Source of the DNA: Myxococcota bacterium | Lineage (GTDB): Bacteria > Myxococcota_A > Polyangia > Polyangiales > Houyiibacteriaceae | NCBI GenBank assembly: GCA_028284955.1 | Contig: JANQQS010000115.1 | Coordinates: forward strand, 1 to 64,000 | Reading direction: 5' to 3' | Length of the DNA: 64,000 nucleotides | Shown: piece after piece, positions 1 to 16,152 of the stretch | Numbering within the stretch: the first letter of the stretch is position 1 | How the letters are laid out: each line of letters starts with the position of its first letter | The notes under the pieces: model-generated | Seen by the model: the letters and a program-made list of their open reading frames with translations, nothing else | Databases searched by the model: none | Told to the model about the DNA's origin: nothing | Translations under genes and position numbers: made by a program

Positions 1-99
1 CGAGCGCCCCCACAGCAAACGACTGAGGAAGGCTCCGAGCCTTTCGCAGGGAGAGAGCGAGGAGGTAAGCCGCGCTCAGGCCAAAAGGCCGCCGCTCTA
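1..99 (-). mobile_element. MITE-like inverted-repeat element, copy 1 (truncated by window edge)
   Basis: Read on the minus strand, this segment matches 44402-44500 at 94 of 99 positions. It begins with TAGAGCGGCGG, whose first three bases are the stop codon of sctJ, and contains the palindrome GGCCTTTTGGCC. The other end lies outside the window. Copy 2 shows the full structure: 126 bp, about 29-bp imperfect terminal inverted repeats, flanking TA. It could alternatively be a REP-like or terminator element. Confidence 0.75.
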
Positions 100-852
100 G
101 CTCGTGCGGAGGCGGCGAGGGATTAGAAACACCAACAACAACCCGGCCATCACCAGCAGCGCCAAGAAAGCAGCGCCGAGTACCGCTTTGGCGGCCATTG
201 CCGTGCCGGCAGTGACTGCGATGGGGCCGAGGTGGACCAAGCGAGCGCGTTTGCCCAGAGGCGATGCGCTCGTTTTGCTGACGATGGCAACGTCTGACGG
301 CTGCATGCCCACCACTGCGCCGGCTACCAGCGAGCGGATCTCGTCGTCGTGGTAGGGCTTAGCGCCCGCCCGCCGTCGAATGAGCACCGATGCGCGGGGA
401 GTCGCCGGAGTCGATTCATCGAGATTGGCGGTGGAGTGGGGTAAGGCGATATGCACGCGGGCGCCGACTACACCATCGATGGTTTGAATGGTGTCGGCGA
501 GCTCGCTGCCGAGCGCGGCCACGTAGCGCGCGCGTTCTTCCACGGCCGTAGGAACGAGGCCTCCTTCGCCAAACACGTCGAAGAGCCCAGGGTCGGAACG
601 CGCCGGAACTCCGGATTCCTGAAGCGTTTGCAGCGCGCGCCCCACGTCGTCCGAAGAGACTTGCACGCGGAACCGGCCGGCGTTTCCCAAACCTTGTTCG
701 GGCTCTTTTTGAGCTCCAATGTTGCGGCTGTGAAGGAGCGCTAGGACGTTGTTCGCCTGCGCCTCCTCAAGCCCGCTTTCGAGCGTCGTTTGACATGCGC
801 AAAGGAGCACGATGAGAGCGCACCCCGCGGCGCGAGCAAACCGATTGGTCAT
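97..852 (-). CDS. sctJ: Type III secretion inner-membrane ring lipoprotein SctJ (YscJ/PrgK/FliF family)
   Basis: SctJ forms the lipid-anchored inner-membrane ring of the type III secretion basal body. The 251-residue protein starts with a lipoprotein signal peptide whose lipobox is L17-C18-A19-C20. It then has the family's two ring-building domains (roughly residues 25-190), including the typical stretch around VVGARVHIALP, and one C-terminal membrane helix (about 222-243) followed by basic residues. Length is normal for SctJ. The start lies 18 bp after the stop of the upstream pseudokinase gene, so the two are probably co-transcribed. The stop codon TAG is formed by the end of a MITE-like repeat. 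Flagellar FliF is a relative, but it is much longer and not a lipoprotein. Confidence 0.9.
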   Translation of the reverse strand: MTNRFARAAGCALIVLLCACQTTLESGLEEAQANNVLALLHSRNIGAQKEPEQGLGNAGRFRVQVSSDDVGRALQTLQESGVPARSDPGLFDVFGEGGLVPTAVEERARYVAALGSELADTIQTIDGVVGARVHIALPHSTANLDESTPATPRASVLIRRRAGAKPYHDDEIRSLVAGAVVGMQPSDVAIVSKTSASPLGKRARLVHLGPIAVTAGTAMAAKAVLGAAFLALLVMAGLLLVFLIPRRLRTS

Positions 853-870
853 TCCAACCCGTTTCGTACA

Positions 871-2865
871 CTATTCGACGGCGAAACGGTAGCGGGCGCC
901 CATTCTCGGAGCCCCGAAGGACGGAAATCGCACGCTTCGGGTCGCTTTCCCGATGCAACCACGAAATTGCGCGCTCCCTTGCCGCGCGCTCGCCCCGAGC
1001 ACGCTCCCGTTTCCCGCGATCGCGATGTCGATTTGCACCTGGCTGAGATTGCCCCCTCGTCGCAGCTCAGCAGGCACGCATTGGCGGTAGATCCGGTTGA
1101 CATGCTTGTTCATGACCGAGGCGACTTGGTTCGGGGTGAGGCGCGTGGCGTTGTCTGCTTTGGTGACGTCGCCCAATTCAATGCCTTGGTTCATGGCGTC
1201 TTCGTAGCTCAACCCGCCCCTGCCGGCGGCTCGGCCTCCGCCCGTCGCTCGAGACCTCTTGCGTCGACCTCGTCGCGGGCCGGTACGATCAGGAAGAAGG
1301 CCTGCGCTGCCGGTGATTTCGATTTCTCCGAGTTCGTACAGATCATCGAGTTTCGCTTCCTGCGTCTCTTCGTTGGCGTCGTTTTCCCTGGTGAGAAAAA
1401 ACACTCCGCCGCCAATGCCGAGCGCCGCGAGTATCGCCGCCGCGATGGTTATCTTCGCGAAGCCGGTTCGCTTTTCGACCTTTTCGGTGCGGGCAACCGC
1501 TGCTTTGTGGTCCTCATCCGCCTTGCGCAGTTCGTACTGTTTAACGAACTGTTCAAACTCGGGCCATTCGCGTAGAGACTTGCGCGCCCCAGTGTCCATA
1601 TTCAGGAGGCCGTGTTCTTCCCGGATCTCTCCTTTGACGATGAGATCAACGAGCTCCCTCCCCGAAAATGGCCCGTGGTCCAGGTTGTTTTTGACGAACA
1701 TCCAGCGCGGCGCGTCGTTTTCGGTGATCGACGCAAGCGCTTCTCCCAGGTCGACCTGATCTGCCGATGTTCGGGCGGAGGTTTGGGGGCTTTCCGCGAC
1801 AACTTCGGCGAGCGACGGGCGAAACGGTTCGTGCATCGATACACGCATGCCGACCGCTGGGACGTTGGGTACGTCCGGAGCGCGATCCGGAATTCCCGGC
1901 GCTTTGGGCACCCCCGGCGCGGTGGGAATGTCGGGCACCCCGGGAACGCGCGGCGGCGCGGCGGCGGGGGCTGACGGTGTGATCGACAGCGAGATATCGA
2001 CTTCGACCTGGAGGTCGTCGAGCTCCTGTACTTCGGGGGCGTGCGACACGGTGGGTAAGAGCGCGCTTCGAACTTCGTCAGGGTTACGAAATCGGGCGTT
2101 CGGATCGGTCGCCAAACATTTGAGCAAAACCTTGTCGATCGCCTCGGTCGCGTCTGGATGGGCTTGGGAAGGGGGGACGAAACCGTCGGCCGGTGAGCGA
2201 CCGGTCAACAGTTGATACAGGATGGCGCCTAGCCCGAATATATCGCTTGCCGCTGTCGCGGGCTTTCCGAGTTTGATTTCGGGTGCGAGGCACGCTTGCT
2301 CTAAGGTTCCGAGCGCCGCGGCGCCTCGCGCTTCTACGATGGTTTTTCCTACTCCGAAGTCGCCGACTTTGATTGCTCCGGAAGCCCCGATCCACACTGC
2401 GCTCGGTCGCAGGGTACCGTGGCACAGATGTGGCTGAGCGTAGGTCAGCGCGCGACAGAGGTGGGCGATGACATTGTAGGCGCCGCGGAGCGACATGCCT
2501 CGGCCGGCTTCCTGTTCGCGCTCGATCACGCGCGAGAGCGGGGTTCCATCGATCCATTCACAAGCTACAAAATGGTCTTTGGTGGGCGTTGTGCCTACGC
2601 CGTAGGTGGCCACGATATTGGAGTGGCTCAGTGACGATGCGACGCGCGCGCTTTTACGCAGCGTTTTCGATACTGCGTCGGTGATCAGACCTGCGGCGAG
2701 GACGCGCAACGTGATCGGTCGGTTGGTTTTTTTGTCTTTCGCCGCGAGGATCCATCCCAAGGGGTCTTGGTGCACAACGCGGTCCACCACGAACCGCCCG
2801 CCCACTACGGTTCCGGAAGCGAGCGACGGAGAAGAAATGTGGGGTGCGGCGGCCTGTTCGCTCAT
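871..2865 (-). CDS. Membrane-anchored Ser/Thr pseudokinase with GYF-like and AgmX/PglI-type C-terminal domains
   Basis: This 664-residue protein has a Hanks-kinase fold (about residues 18-275) that looks inactive. The glycine loop is absent, the VAIK lysine is arginine (ITLRVL), and the HRD motif reads HGTLRPS, lacking the catalytic Asp; DFG is kept. After it come a Pro-Val-rich linker of PGVP-like repeats (about 305-340), a GYF-like domain (about 395-450, WMFVKNN...HGPFSGREL), one membrane helix (about 475-495) and a C-terminal domain like that of AgmX/PglI, with the pattern V.....R.CV...LRR and a conserved second Cys. It sits directly upstream of sctJ, so I infer a scaffold or regulatory role tied to type III secretion. 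The ATG at MSEQ was preferred over upstream in-frame starts, which give a poor basic extension. Confidence 0.8.
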   Translation of the reverse strand: MSEQAAAPHISSPSLASGTVVGGRFVVDRVVHQDPLGWILAAKDKKTNRPITLRVLAAGLITDAVSKTLRKSARVASSLSHSNIVATYGVGTTPTKDHFVACEWIDGTPLSRVIEREQEAGRGMSLRGAYNVIAHLCRALTYAQPHLCHGTLRPSAVWIGASGAIKVGDFGVGKTIVEARGAAALGTLEQACLAPEIKLGKPATAASDIFGLGAILYQLLTGRSPADGFVPPSQAHPDATEAIDKVLLKCLATDPNARFRNPDEVRSALLPTVSHAPEVQELDDLQVEVDISLSITPSAPAAAPPRVPGVPDIPTAPGVPKAPGIPDRAPDVPNVPAVGMRVSMHEPFRPSLAEVVAESPQTSARTSADQVDLGEALASITENDAPRWMFVKNNLDHGPFSGRELVDLIVKGEIREEHGLLNMDTGARKSLREWPEFEQFVKQYELRKADEDHKAAVARTEKVEKRTGFAKITIAAAILAALGIGGGVFFLTRENDANEETQEAKLDDLYELGEIEITGSAGLLPDRTGPRRGRRKRSRATGGGRAAGRGGLSYEDAMNQGIELGDVTKADNATRLTPNQVASVMNKHVNRIYRQCVPAELRRGGNLSQVQIDIAIAGNGSVLGASARQGSAQFRGCIGKATRSVRFPSFGAPRMGARYRFAVE

Positions 2866-3023: not shown

Positions 3024-3071
3024 GCTGGGCGGCAGGACTGCTGGGCGTCAGGATTGCTGGGCGTCAGGGTC
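3024..3071. repeat. Three 16-bp tandem repeats upstream of egtB
   Basis: Three consecutive units of the type GCTGGGCGTCAGGATT (period 16) lie in the gap between the divergent pseudokinase and egtB genes, ending 10 bp before the egtB ribosome-binding site. The period is not a multiple of three, so the tract is probably non-coding and a copy change would alter promoter or leader spacing. Confidence 0.7.
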
Positions 3072-3098: not shown

Positions 3099-4400
3099 AT
3101 GAATCTTCGCACTCAAACCCACGATCATTTTCAGCAGGTTCGCAGTCAGACCGAGCGCCTATGCCACGGGCTCGAAAAAGAAGACTTGGTGGTGCAATCC
3201 ATGCCTGACGCGAGCCCCGCGAAGTGGCATCTCGGGCACACCACGTGGTTTTTCGAAACGTTTGTGTTACGAAGCGAGCTTCCGAGGTATACCGAATTTC
3301 ACGATCGGTTCTGCGACCTTTTTAACTCCTACTACAACGCGGTGGGGCCTCAGTTTGAACGCGCTCGCCGCGGGGTGCTCTCTCGACCGACCGTGGACGA
3401 GGTCTATTCCTACCGGAGCACCGTCGATCGCGCGGTGCATCATCTGATCGATGAGGCTGCCCCGGAGCAATTTGGTCGTGTCGCCGAGCTCCTTACGCTC
3501 GGGTTGCATCACGAGCAGCAACATCAGGAACTGCTGCTGACCGACCTCAAGCATGCCTTTGCGCAGAACCCGATGTGCCCTGCGTATCGAACGCGTACCG
3601 ACCAGCCGTCCCGTTCCCCCGACGACCCGCCCGATGCTTCAGCGGGGAGATACGACGAATTCGTCTCGTTTCGTGGCGGAGTGTTGAAGCTCGGGTTTCA
3701 CGAAGAAGGCTTCTGCTACGACAACGAGGCCCCGTCCCACGAGGTATTGGTACAGCCTTTTGGGCTCGCGAGAGGACTCGTGACCAACCGAGCGTTTCGC
3801 GAGTTTGTTGAAGATGGGGGGTACGAACGAGCGGAACTGTGGCTTTCGGACGGCTGGGAGCACAAAAACAAACACCGCTGGCGACACCCACTGTATTGGA
3901 AGCGCGAAGGCGAACGATGGGTCGAAATGACGCTTCACGGCGTGCAGGAGCTCAGCGACTGCGCTCCGGTATCGCATATCAGTTTCTACGAGGCCGACGC
4001 GTTTGCGACGTGGGCAGGGTGTCGGTTGCCCACCGAAGCCGAATGGGAACACGCGGCGCGAACAACCGACTTGGATGAGAGTCGTGGGACTCTACTCGAG
4101 GATGAACAATATCATCCCGTCGGAAGGTCGACGGCGGATGGATCCGTGTTCAACCACCTCCTTGGTGAAGTATGGGAGTGGACCGGCAGCGCGTACCTGC
4201 CTTACCCAGGGTTTGTCCCAGCGGCCGGCGCGCTGGGCGAGTACAACGGAAAGTTCATGAGCGGGCAGATGGTTCTACGCGGGGGGTCCTGCGCGACTCC
4301 TGCGTCCCATATTCGTCCGACCTATCGAAACTTTTTTCCGCCCCATGCGAGATGGCAGTTTTCGGGGATTCGTTTGGCGGCTCTGGGAAAGACTCCATGA
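3099..4400 (+). CDS. egtB: Hercynine oxygenase / sulfoxide synthase EgtB
   Basis: EgtB is the non-haem iron enzyme of ergothioneine synthesis that joins hercynine to a cysteine-type thiol using oxygen. The 433-residue protein has an N-terminal DinB-like domain with the iron ligands His47 (WHLGH) and HX3HXE (H138, H142, E144). It has a C-terminal formylglycine-enzyme-like domain ending in the typical RGGSCATP...RPTYRNFF...SGIRLA pattern. The ATG at 3099 has a strong Shine-Dalgarno GGAGGAG 11 bp upstream. Its stop overlaps the start of egtD (ATGA). No egtA, egtC or egtE lies nearby, which fits a cysteine-using EgtB or unlinked genes. OvoA is unlikely because the C-terminal methyltransferase is encoded separately. 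Confidence 0.92.
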   Translation: MNLRTQTHDHFQQVRSQTERLCHGLEKEDLVVQSMPDASPAKWHLGHTTWFFETFVLRSELPRYTEFHDRFCDLFNSYYNAVGPQFERARRGVLSRPTVDEVYSYRSTVDRAVHHLIDEAAPEQFGRVAELLTLGLHHEQQHQELLLTDLKHAFAQNPMCPAYRTRTDQPSRSPDDPPDASAGRYDEFVSFRGGVLKLGFHEEGFCYDNEAPSHEVLVQPFGLARGLVTNRAFREFVEDGGYERAELWLSDGWEHKNKHRWRHPLYWKREGERWVEMTLHGVQELSDCAPVSHISFYEADAFATWAGCRLPTEAEWEHAARTTDLDESRGTLLEDEQYHPVGRSTADGSVFNHLLGEVWEWTGSAYLPYPGFVPAAGALGEYNGKFMSGQMVLRGGSCATPASHIRPTYRNFFPPHARWQFSGIRLAALGKTP

Positions 4401-5458
4401 ACCAGACACAAGAAGACTCACCGCAGAAAAACACAGAAAAAAAATATCGAGTGCTCACCGAACGCGAGGTTGGTGCGGTCACCGATGGCGCGGAGGAGTT
4501 CGCGTGCGATGTGTTGATGGGTCTTTCAGGCCAGTCAAAGAGCCTGCCATCAAAATACTTCTACGACGACGCGGGCAGCGAATACTTTCAGCAGATCATG
4601 AATCTCGAGGAGTACTATCCCACGCGGTGCGAATACGAGATCTTCGAGCGTCACGCCGATCAGATCGCGGAGGTTTTGGCTGGTCGTCCGGTGGACATCA
4701 TTGATCTGGGAGCCGGCGATGGCGCGAAAACCTTGGTGCTTCTCGAGGCGTTTACCCGTGCAGGCCACGATTGTCGCTATATTCCGATCGATATTTCAGA
4801 AGGCGCCATGCGCAGCGTGGTGGCCTCCCTTGAGCAAAAGCTTCCTCAGTTGCCGATCGCGGGATTGGTTTCGGAATACACCAATGGGCTTCGCTGGATA
4901 CGCCAGCATGACCCCGGTCGAACCAAGCTTGTGTTGTTCTTGGGTTCGAATATCGGAAACTTCAGCCGCGCTTCGGCGCGCGCGTTTCTGAGACGGCTGT
5001 GGAGCGTGCTCGAGATCGGCGACTACGTGTGCATGGGGTTTGACCTCAAGAAGGATATCGAGGTCTTGCTGCGGGCGTACGCCGATCCGCATGGGATTAC
5101 TGCCGCCTTCAATCTCAACTTGCTCAAGCGCATCAACCGCGAGCTCGAGGGTGAGTTCGACCTGCGAAAGTTCCGGCATTTTGGCACCTACAACGTGTTT
5201 TCGGGCGCGATGGAGAGCTATCTCATCAGTCTCGAGACGCAGTCGGTCTACGTCGGCGCATTGGAGCACGAGTTTTCGTTCGACGCGTGGGAGCCCATTC
5301 ACACCGAGTATTCTTACAAGTATTTGCCCTCCGATATTCGCAGCCTCGCCGCAGATACAGGGTTCCATATTGCTTCGGAATATACGGACGCTCGGGAGTG
5401 GTTTTGTGAGTCGCTGTGGCGTGTGGAGAAGCACACGCGAGAGCAAAACGAATCATAA
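4397..5458 (+). CDS. egtD: L-histidine N-alpha-methyltransferase EgtD
   Basis: EgtD trimethylates histidine with three S-adenosylmethionine to give hercynine, the substrate of EgtB. The 353-residue product has the family sequence: LPSKYFYDDAGSEYFQQI near the N-terminus, a SAM-binding motif DLGAGDGAKT, and FLGSNIGNF further on. Length is slightly above the usual 320 or so because of a short polar N-terminal tail. The start codon overlaps the egtB stop by 4 bp (ATGA), so translation is probably coupled. The order egtB-egtD is a minimal two-gene ergothioneine operon. Confidence 0.93.
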   Translation: MNQTQEDSPQKNTEKKYRVLTEREVGAVTDGAEEFACDVLMGLSGQSKSLPSKYFYDDAGSEYFQQIMNLEEYYPTRCEYEIFERHADQIAEVLAGRPVDIIDLGAGDGAKTLVLLEAFTRAGHDCRYIPIDISEGAMRSVVASLEQKLPQLPIAGLVSEYTNGLRWIRQHDPGRTKLVLFLGSNIGNFSRASARAFLRRLWSVLEIGDYVCMGFDLKKDIEVLLRAYADPHGITAAFNLNLLKRINRELEGEFDLRKFRHFGTYNVFSGAMESYLISLETQSVYVGALEHEFSFDAWEPIHTEYSYKYLPSDIRSLAADTGFHIASEYTDAREWFCESLWRVEKHTREQNES

Positions 5459-10779: not shown

Positions 10780-13700
10780 GTGGACCCAGATTGGGAGGAG
10801 GCTGTGCAGCTACCAGGTTATTCGGTCGAAGAGCCCGTTTATCAGACGGAGCGGGTGCGTGTCGTTCGCGCGCGGCGCGACGAAGATGGTCGGCGCGTGG
10901 TGGTGAAGTTGCTCAAGGACGAGCGCCCGACCTCCCACGAGCTCGCCCGTATCCGGCACGAGTACTCGTTGCTCAAGTTAATTTCTCAACCGTCGGTGGT
11001 GCAGCCTCTCGAGCTGATCGAAAAAGGCCACACCATCGCGCTGGTTTTGGAAGACGCCGGCCGCAAGACGCTGAACGACCTGATCAAGGATCAGGCGCTG
11101 TCGGTCGCGGGCGCGCTTTCGTGGTCCATCGCGCTTGCGCATGCAGTCGACCAGCTGCACCAGCGCGGCATCGTCCACAAGGACATCAAGCCAAAGAACA
11201 TCGCGGTAGACGTTCAAAATAAGAGCGTCAAGCTACTCGACTTCGGCTTGGCGACGCGGCTCGCGCATGAAACGGCGCAGGCGAGCCCGATTCATGATCT
11301 GGAGGGTACGCTCACCCATACTTCTCCGGAGCAAACGGGACGCGTGAATCGTTCCGTGGACGCGCGCAGCGACCTCTATTCGTTGGGGGTTACGCTCTAC
11401 GAGCTATTCACGGGGCAGCTGCCTTTTGAGTCGGAAGACCCCTTGGTGCTGGTGCATAGCCACATCGCGGTGGCTCCGACGGGGCTTCACAAAATTCGCA
11501 GCGAGATTCCCGAGGCGGTCTCGGACATCGTGCTGACATTGCTGTCGAAAGAACCCGAAGACCGCTATCAGAGCGCGTACGGATTGCAGCGTGATTTAGA
11601 GCTCTGCCTCGAGCAGTGGAAAGAGTCGAATCGCGTCCGGCCGTTCGCGCTGAAGGAACATGATCGCATCGAAGCCCTTCATATTCCTCAAAAACTCTAT
11701 GGCCGCGAGGCTGAGCTTGCGGCGCTTCGGCGATCGTTTGACCGAATTTCTCACGGCGCAGTCGAACTCCTCCTGATTACTGGATCCGCTGGAATCGGAA
11801 AATCGGCCTTGGTTGACGAAGTGAATCGAGGAATTGCCGAACATCGTGGCGGCTACTACGTGGTGGGGAAGTTCGATCAACGCAATCGGTCGACTCCTTT
11901 TGTCGCAATCGCGGCGGCGTTTCGCGATTTGATGAAGCAGATGCTCGCGGAAAGCGAAGCGCGACTTGCCGAATGCAAGCGCAACCTCAGCGCGGCGCTG
12001 GGTTCGAACGGAGCCGTGCTCATTGACCTCATCCCGGAGCTCGAATGGATTGTTGGTCCGCAACCGGCGGTGGCTGAGCTCGGGCCGGCGGAATCGCAAA
12101 ATCGTCTCGCGCTGACCTTTCAGAACTTTATCCGCGCTGTGGCCGATGTGGATCATCCTTTGGTGGTGTTCCTCGACGATCTGCAATGGGCTGAACCCGC
12201 CTCGCTCAAACTACTCGAGCTCCTCCTCACCAGTTCCCAGAGCCAGTATGTGTTGGTGGTCGGCGCGTATCGCGGAGAAGAAGTCGGCGCTTCGCATCCG
12301 CTCAGCCGCGCCTTGGAATCCATTCGTGCCGCGGAGCGATCGTTTGATGCGATACGCCTTTCCGCGTTGCCCTACGACGACGTGCATCGCTGGGTTGCGG
12401 ATACTGTGCAGCGTGTTCCTGAGTCGGTAGAGGCGCTTTCAAAGCTGGTGTACGAACGAACCCACGGGAATCCGTTCTACGTTCAGCAGTACCTGGAGTT
12501 CCTCCATCGAGAAGGCCTTTTGGTGTACGACACCGAGAAGCGGCGCTGGACGTGGGATATCGAGAGCATTGGCCGCACCTCGGTAATGGACAACGTCGTC
12601 GATTTGATGACGGAGAAAATTCAACGAGCTGCGCCGAAGACCCAGCGAGCGCTCAGATACGCGTCTTGTGTGGGGCACCGTTTTGATCTTCGGACTCTTG
12701 CGTCGGTATGTGACACATCGCCAGAGGAGCTTGCGGAATCGCTTTGGGAGGCGCTCGAGGAGCGGCTTCTCTTGCCCCTTGACGCAGGGTATCGACTCGC
12801 CGCGCACCAAGGAGAGGAAGGAACGGCCAGCGCGCTGTATCGGTTTTCGCACGACCGGATTCAGCAGGCGGCGTACACGCTGATTCCGGTGGAGGAGCGA
12901 GCAGGCATTCATCTGCGCATAGGCCGCTATCTCAAGGCGGATTATGAAGCGCGCGCCGCTGAGGCTCCCGAGCTGCTCTTCGATTTGGTGGAGCATCTGA
13001 ACCTGGGCGCTTCGGAAATCTCAGAACCCAGCGAACGCGCGGCGTTGGCTCGTTGGAACCTTCAGGCAGCGAAAAGAGCACAGTCGTCCACGGCGTACGA
13101 TGCCGCGGCGGTGTATCTCGACGCGGGCTTGGCGATGCTCGATTCGGAGAGCTGGGCCGAGCACTATGATCTGGCCTATCCCATGCACGTCCGGCGAGCC
13201 GAGTGTGCCTATCTCACGGGCGACTTCGAGCGAGCGGAACATCTCTTCGAGAAATCGCTGAAACACGCGGCGTCCACGCTCGATCAGGCCCGAGTTCATA
13301 ACTTGCGGATGGTGCTCGACACAATGCTCGGGAAGTTTCCCGACGTCGTGGCGGTGGGCCGCGTCGCACTGGCTCTTTTTGATGTCGAAATTCCTGAACG
13401 CCTCGAAGCACTCGAGCCGCAGATTGGTCACGAGCTGGGTAAGGTTCAAAAGCATTTGGAGCAGCAGGCGATTTCCGCATTGGTGGAAGCGCCTCCGCTC
13501 AGCGATGCGACGGATTTGATGATCGCCGAGCTGCTCGCCAACATGACCCAGTCCGCCTACTTTGTGAGCCCGCCTACGCTGGCCGTGGTGGTTGCCAAGC
13601 AAGTCAACCTCTCCCTCGAAAAGGGGCAGTCGATGTACTCTGCCTGGGGCTACGCTTGGTACGGCATCATGATGGCCCTCCAAGGCCACTACGGTCGCGC

Positions 13701-16152
13701 TCGCGAGTTTTGTGAGCTCGGGGTATCGGTATCCGAACGACAAGCCAACCGTGACCTCAACTGCCGCATCAACTTCATTCTTGGGTCAACGCTGGCCCAT
13801 TTTGTGGCTCCGCTTCCTGAAGCGATGGAGTGCTTGCAGCGGTCGATCAACTACGGCTACGAGACCTGCGACTTTACCTTCCTTACCTACGCGCACATCT
13901 TCACCGTGACCACGCGGTTCAACCAGGGTCAGCCTCTGATGTCGATCGAAGAGGATGTCCATCGGCTGCAGGATTTGGGTCGCAAGACCAAGGAGCAGTT
14001 TGCGGAGATTCAGTCGCCCATGTTGGAGCACGTTGTGCGCAACTTGCTGGGCGAGACGCATGGTCCCGACACGCTGACGAGCGGTGACTTCAGTGAAGAG
14101 GGGTATCTCACGAAGGTGCGAAGCGGCCCCGAATACACCGTGCACTACGGCCTCTACAACTCCCTCCGAGCGCAGCTCCATGTGCACTATGGCGAATTCG
14201 ACAAAGCCAAAACGGTCCTCGAAGCCATGACCGCAGTGCTCCAAGCTGCCCAGGGCGCGCAGTATGTGACTGAGTTTCCGTTTTTTCGGGCCATCACGCT
14301 TAGTTCTCTCTGCGAAGGGCAAGAGGAAGAGGAGCAAGAGCGGTTCAAGGCGCTAATTCAGACGGACCTCAGCGAGCTTCAAATGTGGGCGGAGGCGTGC
14401 CCCGAGAACCAAAGACACAAACAGCTCTTGGTAGAGGCCGAAGTCGCTCGGCTCGAAAGCGATGAAGTTGCCTGCTTACGCCTCTACGACGAAGCCATCG
14501 CCGCGGCGCGAGACCAAGGGTTTTGGCAACATGAGGCATTGGCCAACGAATTTTGCGCGCGCTACCACCTCTCCCGAGGTCGACACGCGGTGGCGAGAGG
14601 CTACCTCGAGGAGGCGGCGTACAGCTACGATCGATGGGGCGCAAAAGCGAAAGTCACACACTTGCTTGCGGCCTATCCAACGCTGCTCAAGCTTCGCGGC
14701 GAAGCGGGCGGATCCACGCATGCATCGGTGACGCGGAATAGCCGGGGCAAACAAAGCGCGGCGCGTCGGCTGGATCTTGATGCACTGACCGCAATTCGCG
14801 CCGCTCATGCCATGTCGAGCGAGCTCGAGCTCGACAAACTAATCGCTCAGGTGCTCGAGGCCCTGGCTCAGAACGCAGGCGCTCAACACGCCGCGCTCTT
14901 TCTGTCGCAGGACAATCTTGTTCGTCTGGAAGCGATGGTCGAGGTCGACGGTGAAGACAGCGTGAAGACCGGGCTCGATCAAGCGGTTGGTGAAGCGGAA
15001 GGAGTGGCGCGCAGCGTGGTGCACTATGTCACTCGGACGCAAGAACAGTTGGTGCTCAGCGATCCCACTGGAGACCGACGATTTTCCCACGATCCGCATG
15101 TGCAGCGGCGCCAGCCCAAGAGTTTGCTTTGCGCACCGATGACCTATCGCGGCCAGATGATCGGCATCCTGTACATGGAAAATCACGTGACTCGGGACGC
15201 GTTTTCGGAAGAACGATTGGAGATTCTCCAGTTGCTCTCGGCGCAGGCCGCGGTTGCGATCGAAAACGCACGGCTCTACGCGAGCGTGAAAGCGTCCAAC
15301 GCGATGCTCGAAGAGCGGGTGGCGGAGCGAACCGAACGCCTCGAGGTGACGCTCAAGGAACTGTGGAGCGAAATGGATCTCGCGCGCAAGATTCAGACCG
15401 TGCTCCTACCCGACCCGAGGGAAATCTGCGGCTACGATGTGCACGCGCGTATGCTTCCGGCGCTCAATGTGGGCGGCGACTACTATGACTTCATCCAAAC
15501 CGGCGATATTGGATGGGTGCTGGTAGGAGACGTGTCAGGGCACGGCGTCAGCGCGGGGCTCATCATGATGATGGCGCAGACCGCAATTCGCACCGCGACC
15601 TCCAGCTTCGCGGCGCGCGGCATTGAGCTCTCCCCGTCGATGCTGCTCGGTGCGGTCAACGAGGCGATTTGGGAGAACCTGCAGAAGATCGGCGAAGGTC
15701 AGTATATGACCGCGTCGGCGCTCCGCTTGGATGGAGACCGCATTCATCATTCTGGGCTGCACCAGGATTTGCTTGTCTATCGTGCGGCCTCCGGGTCGAT
15801 CGACCGTATTCCGTCGCGCGGCCTCTGGCTTGGAATTGAACAGGACGTATCCGAGGTCATGACCGACGATTCCTTCGACATGGCGCCCGGGGATATCGTG
15901 CTGTTGTACTCGGATGGGGTCACAGAGTCGCGAGTTACGGAGTCGCGGGTTACAGAGACCCAGGATACAGAGTCGCGAGTCGGCAACGCTTCTTCCCACA
16001 AGGTCCTCGGCGTGCACGGGCTGACCGAGCTTTTCCTCCGGCGTGCTGGAGAAACCACAAACCTCGAGCAAATCGTTCAAGGATTGCTCAAAGATATCGA
16101 GCCTTACGAAAACGACGACGACACCACTTTGGTGGTGCTTCGTCGCCAATAG
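10780..16152 (+). CDS. Giant signalling protein: Ser/Thr kinase - AAA ATPase - TPR-like - GAF - SpoIIE phosphatase
   Basis: The 1790-residue cytoplasmic protein has five parts. An N-terminal Ser/Thr kinase (about 1-270) appears active: VVVKLLK lysine, HKDIKPKN, DFG. An AAA/STAND ATPase follows (from about 300) with Walker A GSAGIGKS and Walker B VVFLDDLQWAEP. A long helical TPR-like region (about 700-1300) precedes a GAF domain (about 1340-1490) and, after a coiled coil, a SpoIIE/PP2C-type phosphatase (NVGGDYYDF, LVGDVSGHG, LLYSDGV). The first four resemble the large kinase/ATPase/GAF sensor histidine kinases, but the histidine kinase is replaced by a phosphatase. The GTG start is supported by GGGGAGG 8 bp upstream. 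It is followed by receiver, FIST and hybrid-kinase genes, so I infer partner switching with two-component signalling. Confidence 0.85.
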   Translation: MDPDWEEAVQLPGYSVEEPVYQTERVRVVRARRDEDGRRVVVKLLKDERPTSHELARIRHEYSLLKLISQPSVVQPLELIEKGHTIALVLEDAGRKTLNDLIKDQALSVAGALSWSIALAHAVDQLHQRGIVHKDIKPKNIAVDVQNKSVKLLDFGLATRLAHETAQASPIHDLEGTLTHTSPEQTGRVNRSVDARSDLYSLGVTLYELFTGQLPFESEDPLVLVHSHIAVAPTGLHKIRSEIPEAVSDIVLTLLSKEPEDRYQSAYGLQRDLELCLEQWKESNRVRPFALKEHDRIEALHIPQKLYGREAELAALRRSFDRISHGAVELLLITGSAGIGKSALVDEVNRGIAEHRGGYYVVGKFDQRNRSTPFVAIAAAFRDLMKQMLAESEARLAECKRNLSAALGSNGAVLIDLIPELEWIVGPQPAVAELGPAESQNRLALTFQNFIRAVADVDHPLVVFLDDLQWAEPASLKLLELLLTSSQSQYVLVVGAYRGEEVGASHPLSRALESIRAAERSFDAIRLSALPYDDVHRWVADTVQRVPESVEALSKLVYERTHGNPFYVQQYLEFLHREGLLVYDTEKRRWTWDIESIGRTSVMDNVVDLMTEKIQRAAPKTQRALRYASCVGHRFDLRTLASVCDTSPEELAESLWEALEERLLLPLDAGYRLAAHQGEEGTASALYRFSHDRIQQAAYTLIPVEERAGIHLRIGRYLKADYEARAAEAPELLFDLVEHLNLGASEISEPSERAALARWNLQAAKRAQSSTAYDAAAVYLDAGLAMLDSESWAEHYDLAYPMHVRRAECAYLTGDFERAEHLFEKSLKHAASTLDQARVHNLRMVLDTMLGKFPDVVAVGRVALALFDVEIPERLEALEPQIGHELGKVQKHLEQQAISALVEAPPLSDATDLMIAELLANMTQSAYFVSPPTLAVVVAKQVNLSLEKGQSMYSAWGYAWYGIMMALQGHYGRAREFCELGVSVSERQANRDLNCRINFILGSTLAHFVAPLPEAMECLQRSINYGYETCDFTFLTYAHIFTVTTRFNQGQPLMSIEEDVHRLQDLGRKTKEQFAEIQSPMLEHVVRNLLGETHGPDTLTSGDFSEEGYLTKVRSGPEYTVHYGLYNSLRAQLHVHYGEFDKAKTVLEAMTAVLQAAQGAQYVTEFPFFRAITLSSLCEGQEEEEQERFKALIQTDLSELQMWAEACPENQRHKQLLVEAEVARLESDEVACLRLYDEAIAAARDQGFWQHEALANEFCARYHLSRGRHAVARGYLEEAAYSYDRWGAKAKVTHLLAAYPTLLKLRGEAGGSTHASVTRNSRGKQSAARRLDLDALTAIRAAHAMSSELELDKLIAQVLEALAQNAGAQHAALFLSQDNLVRLEAMVEVDGEDSVKTGLDQAVGEAEGVARSVVHYVTRTQEQLVLSDPTGDRRFSHDPHVQRRQPKSLLCAPMTYRGQMIGILYMENHVTRDAFSEERLEILQLLSAQAAVAIENARLYASVKASNAMLEERVAERTERLEVTLKELWSEMDLARKIQTVLLPDPREICGYDVHARMLPALNVGGDYYDFIQTGDIGWVLVGDVSGHGVSAGLIMMMAQTAIRTATSSFAARGIELSPSMLLGAVNEAIWENLQKIGEGQYMTASALRLDGDRIHHSGLHQDLLVYRAASGSIDRIPSRGLWLGIEQDVSEVMTDDSFDMAPGDIVLLYSDGVTESRVTESRVTETQDTESRVGNASSHKVLGVHGLTELFLRRAGETTNLEQIVQGLLKDIEPYENDDDTTLVVLRRQ
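15919..15978 (+). repeat. Four 15-bp in-frame tandem repeats in the phosphatase domain
   Basis: Four units close to GTTACAGAGTCGCGA encode a pentapeptide run (VTESR, VTESR, VTETQ, DTESR). The tract follows directly after the LLYSDGV metal-binding motif of the SpoIIE domain, in a loop position. The period keeps the frame, so copy changes would lengthen or shorten the loop without breaking the gene. Confidence 0.85.

Follow-up and report, generated by a model that had tools for sequence, protein, structure and literature searches.

Does a kinase-like protein that has lost its catalytic residues, and is encoded beside a type III secretion system (T3SS) gene, form part of that secretion system, or does it serve the cell envelope in some more general way? 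The locus that raises this question lies in a 64,000 nt stretch of DNA (hereafter the window) from a Myxococcota bacterium (Polyangiales; Houyiibacteriaceae), assembly GCA_028284955.1, contig JANQQS010000115.1, labelled G000 in our genome set. The initial annotation had read the protein, here termed P0001, as a dead kinase tied to a secretion system.

Layout of the locus

The features on which the argument rests are as follows, with the positions of the whole window:

871..2865, minus strand: pseudokinase-GYF-TM-TonB-like protein P0001, 664 aa from the ATG at 2865
2041..2817, minus strand: pseudokinase domain with a PknB-like two-lobe fold, residues about 17-275
2704..2706, minus strand: Arg54 instead of the VAIK Lys
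2413..2421, minus strand: His149-Gly150-Thr151 instead of HRD
2353..2361, minus strand: DFG motif, residues 169-171, retained
1714..2040, minus strand: Pro-rich linker of low model confidence, residues about 276-384
1546..1707, minus strand: GYF_2-like domain, residues about 387-440
1390..1461, minus strand: TM helix, residues about 469-492
1180..1353, minus strand: conserved segment, very probably periplasmic, with the juxtamembrane sequence DLYELGEIEITGSAGLLPD and a SYEDAMN motif, residues about 505-562
874..1140, minus strand: TonB/TolA-like C-terminal domain (AgmX/PglI type), residues about 576-664
97..852, minus strand: sctJ, T3SS inner-membrane ring lipoprotein, starting 18 bp past the pseudokinase stop

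An alternative GTG start at 2919 would give P0001 a length of 682 aa; the stop codon occupies 871-873. No terminator-like site separates the pseudokinase gene from sctJ in the window. The start of the window coincides with a contig end (G000:C184:1), which hides whatever lies past sctJ in this genome.

Elsewhere in the window, a short tandem repeat (3024-3068; 2.8 copies of the 16-bp unit GCTGGGCGTCAGGACT) lies between the pseudokinase gene and the divergent plus-strand gene that comes next. Judged by their translations, the two plus-strand genes upstream of the pseudokinase (3099-5458) resemble an EgtB/EgtD-type (ergothioneine-like) pair. The translation of 10780-16152, a protein of 1790 aa, has the look of an active-type kinase (HKDIKPKN, DFG), followed by an ATPase-like middle, a GAF-like region, a phosphatase-like C-terminus and, near the end, a VTESR repeat.

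A kinase fold without catalytic residues

P0001 matches the Pkinase profile (E 6e-18, residues 38-235) and NCBIfam PknB (E 6e-35, residues 18-277), and its AF2 model adopts a kinase fold (pLDDT about 89) whose best PDB matches are PknB and PknA (Foldseek to PknB, 5e-19). As the initial annotation had proposed, the glycine loop is gone, being replaced by VVHQDPLGWI; VAIK has become TLRV, which puts Arg54 in the place of the beta-3 Lys; HRD has become HGT; and DFG is kept. Further losses affect the catalytic-loop Lys (Arg153) and the catalytic Asn (Ala156).

These losses extend across the family. Of 67 aligned homologues, 51 have a two-lobed kinase domain, and all of these 51 lack the beta-3 Lys, the HRD Asp and the catalytic-loop Asn. 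By contrast with these sites, the APE Glu and the alpha-I Arg, which maintain the fold, are retained in 67/67. An active kinase is thus rejected, at least as far as alignments can speak, and homologues with intact catalytic residues, which would have contradicted the initial annotation, were sought without success among the two-lobed proteins. That P0001 is a Hanks/PknB pseudokinase, catalytically dead throughout its family, is strongly supported by these substitutions, and we infer that it makes no use of ATP.

The DFG motif leaves room for a different reading, in which the pseudokinase binds ATP and Mg through DFG and acts as a conformational switch that gates a partner. The DFG Asp is indeed present in P0001 and in 26 of the 51 two-lobed homologues, but that leaves it absent from half of the family, and neither the glycine loop nor the beta-3 Lys nor the catalytic Asn remains. 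Moreover, in families f7 and f12 the alignment of the 15 proteins covers the kinase C-lobe only (profile position about 106 onward), and several of their ORFs start within about 20 residues of that position, so that these do not encode the N-lobe. We regard such nucleotide sensing as very improbable.

In genome G033 the reduction goes further: no kinase domain is detected, and the GYF-TM-C-domain portion still lies beside sctJ. The non-kinase part of P0001 is matched in 56 of 57 related genomes. (A scan with a generic kinase pattern is a poor guide to the family, orthologues making up 7 of its 80 loci.) The retention of GYF, TM helix and C-domain alongside C-lobe-only or absent kinases argues that binding surfaces, not ATP chemistry, are what is kept; as read from these alignments, selection has preserved putative binding modules and not catalysis.

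The GYF-like domain, the membrane helix and the C-terminal domain

The fusion of a GYF-like domain, a membrane helix and an AgmX/PglI-like C-terminal domain to the kinase fold, also part of the initial annotation, is borne out, although with profile scores under the curated cut-offs, for which reason we name both domains as "like" and do not file them as members. GYF_2 (PF14237) is sub-threshold on P0001 (E 0.018 on the whole protein, 0.006 on the tail alone; 16.8 bits against a cut-off of 25.8) and reaches E<=0.01 in 7 of 31 relatives (best 1e-4). Family conservation supports the assignment: the DHGP of the GYF region, Asp396-His-Gly-Pro399, is invariant in 67/67 homologues. For the C-terminal domain, the myxo_SS_tail profile (the AgmX/PglI C-terminal domain, NF033768) gives E 2.1e-5 on P0001 (24.6 bits, and 26.3 bits in a second scan, both below the 40-bit cut-off) and E<=0.01 in 25 of 31 relatives (best 1.4e-8). 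The GltJ model matches 8/31 family tails and the GltG model 6/31; with GltJ (NF033761) it is only the C-domain of the relatives that matches, at E about 1e-5 and far under the 450-bit cut-off, with no full-length equivalog match.

Modelled alone, the C-domain is predicted with a pLDDT of 77. TonB/TolA C-terminal domains, whose fold is alpha-beta-beta-alpha-beta, fill most of the top Foldseek rows, albeit with weak E-values (best 0.01), and most of the best rows in VIA-align at modest Z-scores of 4-6.2 over about 80 residues; 4qe0 (DUF5043) shares first place with TonB. The structure-match rows listed include no ring-building fold of SctD or SctJ, and the tail profile matched nothing meaningful among PDB sequences. 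Cys596 and Cys637 are invariant in all 67 homologues, an invariance from which a disulfide lock between them is probable.

TonB/TolA energy transducers carry a His or Ser in the TM helix for coupling to ExbB/TolQ. The TM helix of P0001, AKITIAAAILAALGIGGGVFFL, has neither residue, which makes anchoring or docking more likely than force transmission. Basic residues lie on the N-terminal side of this helix, the pattern of an N-in, C-out protein. In the genus g2, which lacks a T3SS (see below), we also came upon small stand-alone proteins with the SYEDAM motif and a TonB-like domain, up to 49% identical to the pseudokinase protein (L314:5067-5531, L315:5000-5521, L316:4655-5236 and L317:4930-5295); wherever their N-terminus is complete it is of the lipoprotein type. 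Because basic residues precede the TM helix and the SYEDAM/C-domain unit sits behind lipoprotein-type N-termini in g2, the C-terminal side of the pseudokinase protein is very probably periplasmic.

Pairing with sctJ

The identity of the neighbouring gene rests on matches to SctJ TIGR02544 (E 1e-41; 142.8 bits, under the cut-off of 161.95) and YscJ_FliF (E 3.4e-25), together with a lipobox-like LCAC and a C-terminal TM segment visible in the sequence. Its product is the sole short non-flagellar YscJ/FliF protein in G000.

Key genes at the fetched loci were located by profile on all ORFs, and linkage was counted both ways, that is, from pseudokinase loci and from sctJ loci picked regardless of the pseudokinase. 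Counted from the pseudokinase, sctJ lies directly 3' on the same strand in 31 of 41 loci; the other 10 are eight from g2 (two of which hit a contig end), G012 and G044. Counted from sctJ, at loci with enough upstream sequence, the architecture that the initial annotation had suggested looking for near other myxobacterial sctJ genes is directly 5' in 29/38 and 1.4 kb off in one, while 8/38 have no pseudokinase nearby. Linkage is therefore conserved across the order, so that the other outcome which would have contradicted the initial annotation, a lack of such linkage, did not occur either. The genes flanking the pair at the examined loci are either those for a DEAD-box helicase, glutamate dehydrogenase and MlaE, or those for EPSP synthase and HisG. 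The two genes share a strand, often with a very short gap or none, and where sctJ is present they are probably co-transcribed.

A scattered non-flagellar T3SS

We rejected the idea that this sctJ belongs to a T3SS gene cluster, since the pseudokinase and sctJ form an orphan two-gene unit far from other T3SS genes. SctV/FlhA, SctR/FliP, SctU/FlhB and SctN/FliI are each present twice in G000, which thus has a non-flagellar set besides the flagellar one; the flagellar set is on contig C23, the non-flagellar genes on C155 (SctV), C202 (SctR), C8 (SctU), C147 (SctN) and C184 (SctJ). In G043, a single 10.3-Mb contig (C1), the single copies lie at 1.96 (SctU), 5.48 (SctJ), 5.80 (SctV), 7.98 (SctR) and 9.78 Mb (SctN). 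The sctV, sctR, sctU and sctN genes thus each stand alone, at distances of hundreds of kb to Mb. Housekeeping genes recur beside the scattered sct genes, namely priA, dnaJ and, judged from sequence, recR/ybaB-like genes. Near sctV in three genomes there is also a protein weakly resembling the OMP_b-brl beta-barrel (E about 2e-5; L111:11742-12605, L112:8035-8916, L113:7869-8783), which could be a partner or mere synteny.

In the literature, the T3SS genes of myxobacteria sit together in clusters (PMC3459982, PMC10433427). Myxo systems were confined to Cystobacterineae in a survey from 2012 (PMC3459982); another, from 2023, reported T3SS of myxobacteria chiefly from the order Myxococcales (PMC10196010), and multiple sctV/sctR copies have been noted in Polyangia (PMC11509652). 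Our data indicate that myxobacteria outside Cystobacterineae carry a non-flagellar T3SS with singly scattered genes, which is just what cluster-based searches miss.

A search of the genomes for SctD with TIGR02500 gave no match over the cut-off; almost all matches were of the N-terminal FHA type, and these swamp the search, T3SS-free genomes included. TIGR02500 is absent from the families that match P0001, and the locus is absent among the genome-search matches listed. The apparent lack of SctD invites the suggestion that P0001 is a dedicated basal-body part which stands in for SctD, holding the inner ring and linking it to the cytosolic sorting platform in the manner of EssB/YukC. The topology would suit such a part, SctD likewise being a single-pass protein with a cytosolic scaffold and a periplasmic domain beside SctJ; the pseudokinase is directly 5' of sctJ in 60 loci examined; and EssB/YukC provides a precedent for a pseudokinase as a core secretion-system hub (PMC9600267). 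On the other hand, its C-domain matches TonB/TolA folds and no ring-building ones among the rows listed, sctJ loci without a nearby pseudokinase exist, and the distribution of the two genes, described next, speaks against it.

Adjacency, controls and independent loss

Does adjacency mean function? In a set of nine genomes the pseudokinase is next to sctJ in eight, but sctU is next to priA in 5/9 and sctN next to dnaJ in 4/5. Neither priA nor dnaJ is a T3SS gene, and these neighbourhoods are conserved without a plausible function; adjacency alone is therefore no proof of function, and we rejected it as such.

The gene contents of individual genomes bear on the same point. No SctJ was found in the 17 listed genomes of g2, and those tested have no SctV, SctR, SctU or FliI/YscN-type ATPase over the cut-off. 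Their pseudokinase is intact and, at the loci read, still follows the same DEAD-box helicase. Pairwise dN/dS is mostly 0.05-0.2 in the kinase, GYF and C-domain: the g2 pseudokinase is under purifying selection without a T3SS. G012 likewise lacks SctJ and keeps the pseudokinase. Conversely, in G003 the helicase is followed directly by sctJ, SctV and SctR are encoded elsewhere, and the pseudokinase tail was found nowhere in the genome. Losses in both directions imply that neither the pseudokinase nor the T3SS genes strictly need the other.

A protein kept under selection in T3SS-free g2, and absent from G003 despite its SctJ, SctV and SctR, fits poorly with a dedicated SctD substitute, which we consider unlikely. 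A more elaborate version, that the pseudokinase is the inner-membrane scaffold of a scattered and possibly needle-less T3SS, replacing SctD beside SctJ, while related families gradually lost first the N-lobe and then the whole kinase, strikes us as more doubtful still.

At the other extreme, P0001 might serve some other envelope machine (e.g. gliding or polarity) and sit beside sctJ purely through frozen gene order. The priA and dnaJ controls, the independent losses in G003, G012 and g2, and the relationship of the C-domain to GltG/GltJ all fit such a bystander. Yet the pseudokinase-sctJ adjacency is tighter and wider than that of the controls, being found in almost every family sampled and in part of f12, on one strand, often with little or no gap and, in the window, with no intervening terminator-like site. 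We judge pure synteny improbable as well.

The claim that the dead kinase is tied to a secretion system is thus partly supported: the order-wide adjacency to sctJ stands, while the orphan state of the pair, the control pairs and the independent losses in g2 and G003 tell against a strict tie.

Favoured mechanism

The reading we prefer, and hold to be somewhat better than an even bet, is that P0001 is a non-catalytic inner-membrane adaptor between cytosol and periplasm, whose core role is independent of the T3SS and which possibly has a further role at the SctJ ring. Because g2 kept the pseudokinase intact after losing the T3SS, the protein probably serves the envelope in general and is not dedicated to secretion. 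On the cytosolic side, protein partners and proline-rich peptides would dock on the pseudokinase and the GYF-like domain; beyond a single TM helix, the SYEDAM motif and the TonB/TolA-like domain would touch envelope partners in the periplasm. As with GltG/GltJ or EssB/YukC, the protein would act by binding and not by phosphorylation. This core role would need no T3SS; in genomes with sctJ, the SctJ ring or its immediate surroundings may be a further site of action. The topology and partners of the adaptor, and all its interactions, are what we infer. Adjacency in 8/9 genomes, against 5/9 for sctU-priA, exceeds what a pure bystander needs, and the part played in the T3SS may be greater than we allow.

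What emerges is an order-wide family of putatively non-catalytic kinase adaptors, with a natural test set: genomes with adaptor and T3SS, with the adaptor only (g2, G012), with T3SS genes only (G003), and with a C-lobe-only or kinase-free protein (f7/f12, G033).

Comparison with known systems

SctD (YscD) resembles P0001 in being bitopic, with a cytosolic scaffold and a periplasmic domain, and is the partner of SctJ. What sets SctD apart is its FHA-like cytosolic domain and its ring-building motifs, and the TIGR02500 search showed no homology between the two. PknB-type Ser/Thr kinases share the fold, provide the closest sequence matches and are likewise bitopic with an extracytoplasmic domain; P0001 differs from them in having lost the catalytic Lys, Asp and Asn and in having no PASTA domains. 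The parts of P0001 are thus of known kinds. Their combination and the order-wide pairing with sctJ appear new to us: the literature searched, outside which most subscription papers lie, held no description of a pseudokinase-GYF-TM-TonB-like family.

The needle-less T3SS* of Myxococcus is, like the system here, a non-flagellar myxobacterial T3SS with SctJ, SctN and SctRSTUV (PMC10433427, PMC3459982), but it forms one cluster, MXAN_2434-2464, whereas here sctJ, sctV, sctR, sctU and sctN each stand alone. GltG (PglI) and GltJ (AgmX) of Myxococcus gliding combine, as P0001 does, a cytosolic interaction domain, a TM helix and a TonB-like periplasmic C-terminal domain, and GltG is built like P0001 with FHA in the place of the pseudokinase (PMC3169522). 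Unlike P0001, they have no pseudokinase and are located in motility clusters, not beside sctJ.

EssB/YukC, finally, is a dead kinase that serves as the hub of the T7SSb without binding ATP (PMC9600267). It shares with P0001 a cytosolic Hanks-type pseudokinase without P-loop, VAIK or catalytic motifs, one TM helix and an exported C-terminal domain (PMC9600267), and, likened by published description only, a link to a secretion system, in which EssB/YukC is an interaction hub (PMC9600267). By the same description, it differs in having no GYF domain, another extracellular fold and another secretion system; it is integral to the T7SSb, whereas the P0001 family persists without a T3SS. Were P0001 to replace SctD after all, a dead kinase would have become a secretion-system hub for a second time, independently of EssB/YukC.
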